Below are positions 18,723 through 25,508 of a DNA stretch of 25,536 bases, in pieces; position 1 is the first letter of the stretch; every line of letters starts with the position of its first letter. The notes under the pieces were generated by a model. It did no database searches and was not told where the DNA came from. It saw only the letters and a program-made list of their open reading frames with translations. The translations under genes and the position numbers were made by a program. The stretch comes from a virus: positions 1-25,536 of the IMG/VR virus record IMGVR_UViG_3300017987_002072, one strand, 5' to 3'.

Positions 18723-18778
18723 TCGAGGTCCTCTCCGTAAGAAACCAAGCAGCCTGCACCACCTAACGACGTTTGGCA
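18560..18778. repeat. 14-bp direct repeat at two gene ends
   Basis: The word AACGACGTTTGGCA occurs at 18560-18573 and again at 18765-18778, 205 bp apart. Each copy encodes the last residues (A-K-R-R) of a minus-strand gene: the TTG mini-gene and the methyltransferase. The two copies bracket the mini-gene. A shorter match (CGTTTGGCAGC) lies at the end of the next upstream gene near 19520. Confidence 0.7.
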
Positions 18779-19509
18779 GCAGGCACCTCCAGAAGCGCGA
18801 CCTTCACGGCCTTCGCGATTGCCCGACCCATCGAAAGGGGAACGCCATTGCCAATCATTTGACGCTTTGCGGTCATGGTGAACGCCGTAGTGTCAAGCAT
18901 GTCACGGGGAAAACCTTGCCGCTCAAGCATGTCTCCCACGGACAAACGGCGCCCCTCGTGGGGCGCCGCCCCTCCGGTTTGGTTTGGGCGTTTCTTTGTT
19001 TTCCCGCTACCACCGATCGCCACCGGCTGCTCTCGTGCGTCACACACAACAGACGGGTATTGTGCTGGCAGTTTCGTCGCGACCGGCAAATCAAGGGACG
19101 ACAACCCCGCCCACCAGAAGCGGCGTGTCCGACTTGTAAACCCGCCGCAATCAACATCTCGAACTGTCGCCCAACCGACAGCGCCTAAAGGCGTCGGAGC
19201 GTCAGCAACGTTCTCCATCACCCACCAACGCGGCTGTGCTTCAGCGACTATACGCTCAAATTCAGGAATTAAATCGGGCGCCACACGATACCCTTGCGCT
19301 CGAATCATGTGCACCAGCCGACTAAACGCCTGACATGGTGGCCCCCCTATCACACCATCAAACTTCCCCGCTGGTGGATGAAACCTCCGAATATCCCCAC
19401 CCCAAAGTAGGTCTGGACCCCGCACAAGACAGAACCCCTCCTCCTCAAACGCCATATCCAGGAGGCCGATACCCGGAAAGAGGGAAAGCACCAACGAAAC
19501 ACCTTCCAT
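18763..19509 (-). CDS. DNA cytosine-5 methyltransferase (orphan, compact)
   Basis: Predicted 248-residue enzyme that transfers a methyl group from S-adenosylmethionine to cytosine C5. Motif I is SLFPGIGLLDMAF (9-21). The catalytic cysteine lies in GGPPCQAFSR (about C59). The ENV motif is at 99-101, the QxRxR-type motif VIII is TSRTRRFWW (125-133), and the motif X region is QMIGNGVPLSMGRAIAKAV. At 248 residues it is shorter than typical bacterial enzymes, with a small target-recognition region, as often seen in phages. No restriction enzyme neighbours it, so protection of phage DNA from host restriction is the likely role. It overlaps the upstream gene by TAATG. Confidence 0.9.
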   Translation of the reverse strand: MEGVSLVLSLFPGIGLLDMAFEEEGFCLVRGPDLLWGGDIRRFHPPAGKFDGVIGGPPCQAFSRLVHMIRAQGYRVAPDLIPEFERIVAEAQPRWWVMENVADAPTPLGAVGWATVRDVDCGGFTSRTRRFWWAGLSSLDLPVATKLPAQYPSVVCDAREQPVAIGGSGKTKKRPNQTGGAAPHEGRRLSVGDMLERQGFPRDMLDTTAFTMTAKRQMIGNGVPLSMGRAIAKAVKVALLEVPAAKRR

Positions 19510-23890: not shown

Positions 23891-24037
23891 CGGATCGCCG
23901 ACCACCACATCACAATGGACAGTGATTGTGGCAAAACACACCTCGTCAGGCCGAGATTTCTCACCGTCCGGCAAAACACGAGTGATCGTTGCATCCCCGT
24001 TCATGTACGCGCGATACAACCTTATATCGCTAATCAT
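23813..24037 (-). CDS. Hypothetical protein at the convergent junction
   Basis: Predicted 74-residue protein whose ATG overlaps the upstream stop by 8 bp. The N-terminal two thirds (MISDIRLYRAYMNGDATITR, then PDEVCFATITVHCDVVVGDP) look like a small beta domain. The tail is acidic and disordered. Its GC is lower than that of its neighbours, and the ribosome-binding site is about 13 bases away. Its 3' end overlaps the opposing micro-gene by 78 bp. Confidence 0.5.
   Translation of the reverse strand: MISDIRLYRAYMNGDATITRVLPDGEKSRPDEVCFATITVHCDVVVGDPSEKPVEGVRDEEQPSVDGDQTEGVQ
23822..23852. terminator. Perfect hairpin between converging operons
   Basis: GCCCTCCGT and ACGGAGGGC form a 9-bp GC-rich stem with a 13-base loop, exactly where plus and minus transcription meet. 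There is no long T run on either side. A bidirectional terminator is a reasonable guess. It overlaps both short frames here. Confidence 0.4.
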
Positions 24038-24224
24038 GTGTGGAATCTAACTCCTCGTCGCCTACATCCTGAACCGGCTTCTTTAACCACTCCTCAAACG
24101 AGAGCTGCGTCCGGTTTCCCTTGCTGAGGCGCAGCCACTCCTTGTGCCGCTCCACGATCTCGCGATCGCGCGGAGGACCGCCACGAGTGCATACGATCGC
24201 GTTTCCATGCACCCGGCACGGCAT
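24030..24224 (-). CDS. Small charged protein after the membrane hydrolase
   Basis: Predicted 64-residue protein. ATG overlaps the upstream stop (TGATG). It starts MPCRVHGNAIVCTRGGPPRD, a type of opening (MPC-x-VH...CTRG) seen in short phage proteins of unknown role. It continues with a helical, charged part (EIVERHKEWLRLSKGNRTQL) and an acidic end. C3, H6 and C12 could bind a metal. A longer frame would run into the upstream gene. Confidence 0.65.
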   Translation of the reverse strand: MPCRVHGNAIVCTRGGPPRDREIVERHKEWLRLSKGNRTQLSFEEWLKKPVQDVGDEELDSTHD

Positions 24225-24799
24225 CACGCACCCACCATCGCCAACAGGTAGAACCCGATCGCCGTGAGTAGGTGCCACACTCCATGACACCACCGGGCGA
24301 TCGGCATCGGAGCCCACCGTTCCCTGTCGAGGTTCCAGGCCAGGTACGCCAGACCGAACGTCAGGATCGCAAGCCCGTTCATCCAGGTCACGCCAGCCTG
24401 TAGCACGATGATCGCAAACACGATGCCGATCGCATGGTTCAGGTTCACCTTCGGATCGAACTTATTACGCATGAGCCCGAACAGAGCTCCAGTTAGCAGG
24501 CCGATCCAGCTACCCGTCGCCAGGTACCCGAGCACAGCGAACATGCCGCTGTCATCGCTACCCGCTGCCCAGTTGATACCACAGCACCGAATCGTCTTGA
24601 ATGCGTGGTACACCGCGCTACCCAAACCCAACCAGAACATCGCGATCGCAAACCGCTCGTCGCCGGTCTGGAGGAAATACAGGGCGCCGGCTATCACGTA
24701 GACGATGTTCGACCAGGTGTTGATGTCGCTGTACGGTGGTTTCGATCGCTTTAGGTACTCGTCGTCGGCCCAATGGCCGTACTTCCAGTATTCGGTCAC
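24224..24799 (-). CDS. CREST-superfamily membrane hydrolase candidate (ceramidase-like)
   Basis: Predicted 191-residue protein with about six or seven membrane helices. GTG at 24799 follows GGAGAG and overlaps the upstream stop (GTGA). Signature residues of the CREST group (alkaline ceramidases, PAQR, Per1, TMEM8) appear in order: NTWSNIVYVIAGALYF after a charged N-terminus, S61-x3-H65 in GLGSAVYHAF, D82/D83 in AAGSDDSGMF, and H172-x3-H176 in CHGVWHLL. In that superfamily Ser, Asp and three His form a metal site that hydrolyses lipid amides or other membrane substrates. The substrate here is unknown. It is encoded between a RusA resolvase and a small protein. Its role could be altering host membrane lipids. 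Confidence 0.7.
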   Translation of the reverse strand: MTEYWKYGHWADDEYLKRSKPPYSDINTWSNIVYVIAGALYFLQTGDERFAIAMFWLGLGSAVYHAFKTIRCCGINWAAGSDDSGMFAVLGYLATGSWIGLLTGALFGLMRNKFDPKVNLNHAIGIVFAIIVLQAGVTWMNGLAILTFGLAYLAWNLDRERWAPMPIARWCHGVWHLLTAIGFYLLAMVGA

Positions 24800-25221
24800 A
24801 GCACACTCTCCTGTATCTCGCCCTTGGGTAGGACGCATATCTCGAGTCTGGGGTTGTGGCGCTCGGTGTCGAAGCGGTACTCGTGGGCCTCAGACACCTG
24901 CTTGTCGTCGTCGTACGCGGCGCCCTGGAGCGCATCCTCCACCACCTTGATACGGTTGGTAAGGTCGCCTATTCTCTTCTCGCGATACCACACGACGATG
25001 AGCGTCACCTCGGTAGGACCGGGAATCGGCCTCATGCCGGCTGCGAGCGCGAGGTTCTGCGCCGACTTCTGGTATTCCTTCGCCTCGGCGCTCTTGTACG
25101 TGATTGCTCGCCACCGCTTGCGAGCTCGGCTGTACCTGGCCGTAGTGCGCCAGTATCGGTTCGATGATGGCGGAACGGGTAGCGTGAGTACCTGGGCACC
25201 ATCAGGAAACGGAGAGCTCAC
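24796..25221 (-). CDS. rusA: RusA-type Holliday junction resolvase
   Basis: Predicted 141-residue enzyme that cuts four-way DNA junctions during phage recombination and before packaging. It opens with the RusA-like LTLPVPPSSNRYWR. The family's metal-binding region is GDLTNRIKVVEDALQGAAYD with D86, N89, K92, D96 and then DDDKQV (D104-D106), close to the usual D-x-DN-x-x-K...DAL-x-G...DD-x-x-V. The familiar DxDN is here GDLTN, a small change. GTG at 25221 was chosen because it overlaps the upstream stop (GTGA). Length is normal for RusA, about 120-140 residues. Confidence 0.85.
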   Translation of the reverse strand: MSSPFPDGAQVLTLPVPPSSNRYWRTTARYSRARKRWRAITYKSAEAKEYQKSAQNLALAAGMRPIPGPTEVTLIVVWYREKRIGDLTNRIKVVEDALQGAAYDDDKQVSEAHEYRFDTERHNPRLEICVLPKGEIQESVL

Positions 25222-25508
25222 GACTCCACGGCCTCGTACGTGTCGTGGAAGATGCCAGGCTCGCACGGGTACATCTCACCTGCTACGCCTGTGATGATCC
25301 AGTCACCGATCTCAGCGAACACTTCGCCTTCCAGCGATCGACACGCGAGCTTGCACGTGGACACCCTGGATCGGTCGGGGTGCCAGTACGCAGCGGCGAC
25401 CTGGAGCTCCTTCGGCAACACCCGGCGCTTCTCCAGTATCTCGAGCGCGACCTCCTCGGTGAGCTGCCACGCATCAACTACAACGGGTTTCTTGCGGTAT
25501 TTAGCCAT
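25218..25508 (-). CDS. Small conserved phage protein (MAKYRKKPVVV type)
   Basis: Predicted 96-residue soluble protein. The opening MAKYRKKPVVVDAWQLTEEV and the end GDWIITGVAGEMYPCEPGIF, then YEAV, form a pattern common in many phages (M-x-x-YRKKPVV-x-A...GDWII-x-G-x-x-GE-x-YP-C-x-P-x-IF). Its role is not established. The middle has CKLACRSLEGEVFAE. It is coupled to rusA by a 4-bp overlap. The family is usually found among replication or early genes. Confidence 0.8.
   Translation of the reverse strand: MAKYRKKPVVVDAWQLTEEVALEILEKRRVLPKELQVAAAYWHPDRSRVSTCKLACRSLEGEVFAEIGDWIITGVAGEMYPCEPGIFHDTYEAVES

Follow-up and report, generated by a model that had tools for sequence, protein, structure and literature searches.

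The locus studied here raises the question of whether a phage carries its own membrane-embedded lipid hydrolase, and what such an enzyme would do in the infected cell. The window, i.e., the whole stretch of 25,536 bp that was analysed, is an IMG/VR virus record with its terminase, portal and major capsid genes on the minus strand. The first-pass annotation had placed a gene for a CREST/ceramidase-like membrane hydrolase at 24224-24799, in a phage operon beside rusA. The reading frame was found exactly there, on the minus strand, with a GTG start, 191 codons (24227..24799) and a TGA stop (24224-24226). The gene order in the operon, likewise on the minus strand, was a conserved phage gene of phrog_419 with no assigned function (25218..25508, the first gene seen of the operon), a RusA-type Holliday junction resolvase gene immediately upstream of the CREST gene (24796..25251; Pfam E 1.2e-13, phrog_34 E 9e-21), the CREST gene, and an ORF of 64 aa (24030..24224) with a weak PHROG match. 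The rusA stop and the CREST start share a 4-nt GTGA overlap (24796..24799, minus strand), which points to translational coupling, and a putative Shine-Dalgarno sequence, AGGAGAG (24806..24812, minus strand), lies 6 nt upstream of the GTG. In the segment TGATG, the CREST stop overlaps the ATG of the 64-aa ORF by 1 nt. Because the CREST gene overlaps both of its neighbours, it looks like part of an operon, and the claimed setting beside rusA was thus borne out. Elsewhere in the window, positions 18763-19509 encode a short (248 aa) cytosine-5 DNA methyltransferase that matches DNA methyltransferase families.

In Pfam searches, the window protein matched the Ceramidase family (PF05875) with E 4.3e-6, yet its 26.8 bits fell short of the curated cut-off (32.5 bits); it had no match to HlyIII/PAQR (PF03006), and none in NCBIfam, PHROGs or PADLOC. 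Six relatives were collected from bacteria, each scoring above the Pfam Ceramidase cut-off, and two from phages: L011, from a 39.5-kb IMG/VR contig (35% identical to the window protein, E 1e-18), and L028, from a 41.6-kb IMG/VR contig (27% identical, E 4e-8), the latter found via the DNA pattern W-x-H-x-x-W-H-[LF]-[LF]-x-A. Consensus-like probes built from the family's motifs served only to find real relatives, and identities to the probes are not evidence. The Pfam Ceramidase model had no match in L011. An HMM was built from bacterial proteins of the Pfam Ceramidase type only, with the phage sequences left out. This bacteria-only HMM scored the window protein at 52.7 bits (E 2.6e-14 at Z=10,000), L011 at 75.1 bits and L028 at 18.4 bits, while shuffling of the three phage proteins gave at most 10.8 bits in 6,000 copies. 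None of the window's other ORFs scored. In the reverse direction, a phage-only profile (window plus L011) matched bacterial CREST genes in all six of the genomes known to hold one, with E down to 6e-10, and was sparing elsewhere, with just 1, 4, 2 and 8 matching genomes in four phylum samples of 146-198 genomes each. HHalign joined the phage and bacterial profiles at 99% and E 8e-19. Against PDB sequences, a mixed phage/bacterial profile found human ACER3 at E 7.9e-9, in a match that spanned the whole domain and kept every motif in register, followed by weak matches to SID-1 proteins, which are also CREST. The similarity to known CREST members is significant, and the window gene encodes a CREST-superfamily protein; the identity proposed at first reading held up with the bacteria-only and phage-only profiles, in the profile-profile comparison, in the ACER3 match and in the seven-helix model described below.

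The motifs that had been picked out by eye were all present at the residues named, i.e., N27-T-W-S-N31, S61-x3-H65, D82-D83 and H172-x3-H176. NTWSN (residues 27-31, 24707..24721) is at the start of TM1, and the NTxSN form of this motif is also found at ACER3 residues 36-40. S61-x3-H65 (24605..24619) is at the end of TM2 (helix 48-67), D82 (24554..24556) at the start of TM3 (helix 76-95), and H172-x3-H176 (24272..24286) at the start of TM7 (helix 167-190), all read on the minus strand. Alignment equates S61, H65, D82, H172 and H176 with ACER3 S77, H81, D92, H217 and H221. In ACER3, each histidine and the aspartate are essential, and S77A costs about 600-fold in activity (PMC9436119). The aspartate column required care, since a 6-residue insertion before D82 makes it alignment-dependent: MAFFT put D82 in register in two modes and left a gap there in three. 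The choice between D82 and D83, left undecided in the first-pass annotation, was settled as D82 by the register of D-x-x-[GA]-[MI]-[YF], which is common to nine relatives. The H-to-D spacing is 17 in the window protein, 14 in L028, and 11 in L011 and the bacterial proteins (that of L008 being read off the alignment).

None of the five catalytic positions has been lost in the window, L011 or L028 protein, despite identities of 27-35%. This conservation bears on the reading that the phage protein is an inactive CREST-fold protein with a structural or regulatory role. Some members of CREST do have no known catalytic activity; Myomaker, one of the best fold matches of the window protein, is an example. 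Receptors and energetics proteins for which hydrolysis is unproven also count among the CREST relatives (PMC9017321). Given the intact catalytic set in three such divergent proteins, we consider an inactive role very unlikely.

With the aspartate column in register, AlphaFold2 gave a model of seven helices with pLDDT 76.4 and pTM 0.76. The comparison of such a model with known folds had been proposed at first reading, and it went in favour of CREST: all 12 of the 12 best PDB matches in Foldseek were CREST proteins (ACER3, AdipoR1/2 and Myomaker), with moderate TM-scores of 0.51-0.59, and the best was ACER3 (PDB 6g7o; E 1.1e-3, TMq 0.55). An earlier model from an alignment with a gap at D82 had a pLDDT of 66, and ACER3 was still first. 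The input alignment held bacterial CREST proteins, so that the CREST likeness of the fold is not independent of it; the model therefore supports the CREST fold and is no independent proof. The seven core TM segments were predicted at moderate confidence, with TM3-TM4 unusually short. K+R residues were counted on either side of the membrane, with helix ends set by eye; the ratios of the active-site side to the opposite side were 12/1, 13/3 and 8/1 in the three phage proteins. By the positive-inside rule, this bias would put the N-terminus and active site in the cytoplasm, as in ACER3, where both face the cytoplasm (PMC6303388).

The window protein thus resembles ACER3 (PDB 6g7o) in its five catalytic residues, its NTxSN motif and its predicted N-in topology. 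It differs from ACER3 in being only 191 aa long, in having an H-to-D spacing of 17 rather than 11, in having S24 at the position of E33 of the regulatory N-terminal Ca2+ site, and in lacking the pair that forms the C21-C196 disulfide, with A11 at the first position and no cysteine at the TM6-TM7 loop position. The bacterial Pfam Ceramidase proteins (e.g., L005, L006 and L010), which come from Myxococcota, Bdellovibrionota, Acidobacteriota, Planctomycetota and Bacteroidota, are about 20-30% identical to the phage proteins in the alignment and have in common with them the motifs NTWSN, GxGSxxYHA, DxxGMY, WxLD and HxxWHLL. The phage proteins, at 191-200 aa, are shorter than these bacterial proteins, with 90-95 rather than 112-117 residues from the aspartate to the last HxxxH; unlike them, they have a W-x-H preceding the last motif and do not reach the Pfam Ceramidase cut-off, which the bacterial relatives exceed. 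The cysteine pair is present in most bacterial relatives, whereas inspection of the sequences found neither cysteine in the phage proteins, L008 or L046. Across the bacterial relatives L005-L010 and L065-L086, the cysteines matching ACER3 C21-C196 were both present or both absent, a pattern that suggests a real structural pair even in bacteria. Three ceramidase-family genes (L065, L066 and L005) were found in a single genome of Bdellovibrionota (Oligoflexia; G008).

These comparisons raise the possibility of a true ceramidase, i.e., that the phage cleaves ceramides in a sphingolipid-making host, for example to alter the envelope or to free fatty acids in the course of infection. The nearest family is indeed Pfam Ceramidase/ACER3, and several of the phyla in which the relatives occur include known sphingolipid makers. 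Ceramides alter both the adsorption of phages and the sensitivity to them in Caulobacter (PMC6445935). Against this, the phage proteins lack the cysteine pair seen in ACER3 and in most bacterial relatives, CREST members act on different lipids, and a sequence alone cannot give the substrate. Ceramide would be a plausible substrate, and we nevertheless rate a true ceramidase as unlikely. To our knowledge, no substrate is known for the bacterial members of the ceramidase/adiponectin-receptor fold.

The company that the gene keeps was compared among the phages. The L011 contig carries portal, helicase, exonuclease, D5 primase and DNA polymerase I genes, and the L028 contig carries terminase, portal, major head and tape-measure genes. 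The CREST gene is followed in L011 by an HD-domain gene and DUF6378, and is preceded in L028 by HD, VRR-NUC and Dam-like genes, the latter assigned by reading the sequences. Like the window protein, then, those of L011 and L028 are compact, keep the catalytic residues and are encoded beside genes of DNA or nucleotide metabolism, and L028 differs in having STLTS in place of NTWSN. The core phage genes, in contrast, are unrelated: in tblastn searches of the window proteins against the two contigs there was one weak stretch only, the CREST gene aside. The suggestion that the gene be sought in related phages was therefore answered in two ways, as it turned up in two phages with unrelated core genes and was absent from three contigs, possibly fragments, that have the window's terminase, portal and capsid. 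In the tree, window and L011 group together (97/95) and the placement of L028 is unsure; a single origin of the three phage CREST proteins was neither shown nor rejected (p-AU 0.53). The phage CREST gene is an accessory, horizontally moving gene.

Accessory status of this kind, with absence from related contigs, is typical of superinfection exclusion genes, and bacterial PAQR homologues affect membrane potential (PMC9017321). One might thus propose that the phage protein acts in the manner of bacterial PAQR/TrhA proteins, altering a channel or the membrane potential, and so blocks rival phages. The retention of catalytic residues in three divergent phage proteins favours chemistry instead, the operon is of the replication type with no recognised immunity or lysogeny region adjoining, and the protein had no match to defence models; we regard this proposal as quite improbable. 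A role in lysis, in which the protein would damage the membrane as a hemolysin III-like partner of holin and endolysin, would draw on the ability of some bacterial CREST proteins (hemolysin III) to lyse eukaryotic cells (PMC3146951). Pfam gave no hemolysin III match, and the neighbours, rusA in the window, an HD-domain gene in L011 and VRR-NUC/Dam-type genes (read from sequence) in L028, are not lysis genes, which argues weakly against lysis. A part in lysis seems to us highly improbable. Both exclusion and lysis are less likely than a lipid amidase/esterase.

Wider searches for phage members were largely negative. Scans of 50,697 phage records with the window protein, L011, L028 and one bacterial member gave no match, no PHROGs family matched the phage CREST protein, and a plasmid scan with the window protein gave no match. 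One consensus-like probe found nothing in plasmids and phages, the window protein alone found no usable relatives in viral and genome collections, and patterns of the bacterial-type motifs in viral contigs gave no relative that a bacterial query confirmed. L051 and most other pattern matches were rejected as frame accidents, and L079:1130-2082, from Bacteroidota, was set aside as a cellular ceramidase-family gene split in two frames, by either pseudogene formation or sequencing error. In a 9.5-kb viral contig, L030:1293-1972 is a frame that overlaps a portal-like gene in its 3' part and has SxxxH, D and W-x-H-x-x-WHLF in CREST order; TM1 was not obvious in it, and the CREST profile gave no match to it. 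L046:3-722 is a ceramidase-family gene of the bacterial type; it lies upstream of an integrase-like gene in an IMG/VR contig and is probably the host flank of a prophage. Because the scans need exact pattern matches, the true count of phage CREST members probably exceeds three.

We favour, as somewhat probable, the view that the compact phage CREST protein is an integral inner-membrane, Zn-dependent amidase/esterase of the alkaline-ceramidase type that alters host lipids. The seven helices would put S61, H65, D82, H172 and H176 where TM2, TM3 and TM7 end on the cytoplasmic side. If the chemistry is like that of ACER3, the three histidines would hold Zn2+, the aspartate would position the attacking water and the serine would stabilise the oxyanion. 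Hydrolysis of a lipid entering from the membrane would release a free fatty acid and leave the head part. The protein would be expressed together with those of replication and recombination, probably at an early stage of infection, and the HD, DUF6378, VRR-NUC and Dam-like neighbours of the L011 and L028 genes fit such expression. The outcome, most likely, would be a change of the host membrane lipids from inside. The comparisons themselves establish homology, the motifs, seven predicted helices, the layout of the operon and the occurrence of the gene in three phages whose core genes are unrelated; from these we infer Zn binding, catalysis, a lipid substrate, an active site on the cytoplasmic side, the timing and a benefit to the phage. 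More tentatively, phages may have a hitherto unrecognised lineage of compact intramembrane CREST hydrolases of the ceramidase type, which would spread with early genes among unrelated phages and attack, from the cytoplasmic leaflet, a host membrane lipid with an amide or ester linkage.

Phages are known to remodel the nucleotide metabolism and the cell walls of their hosts. The openly available literature, as far as we searched it, describes no phage enzyme with the ceramidase/adiponectin-receptor fold that works within the host membrane. If the protein is active, direct attack on lipids from within the membrane becomes a testable part of phage takeover, and the phage proteins would be small bacterial-virus models of a fold with medically relevant human members (ACER3 and AdipoR). 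In a viral structure library there was no phage among the good matches, and the good matches with a named source were giant viruses of eukaryotes, which sets them apart from the window phage; the best were CREST proteins such as the Marseillevirus LCMAC103 'Ceramidase' and that of EhV-86, with TMq about 0.5-0.6. Viruses have thus taken up CREST genes before. Proteins of this fold were seen in a Megaviridae sample, Marseillevirus LCMAC103, EhV-86, Catovirus and Sylvanvirus, many of them still annotated as 'uncharacterized'.
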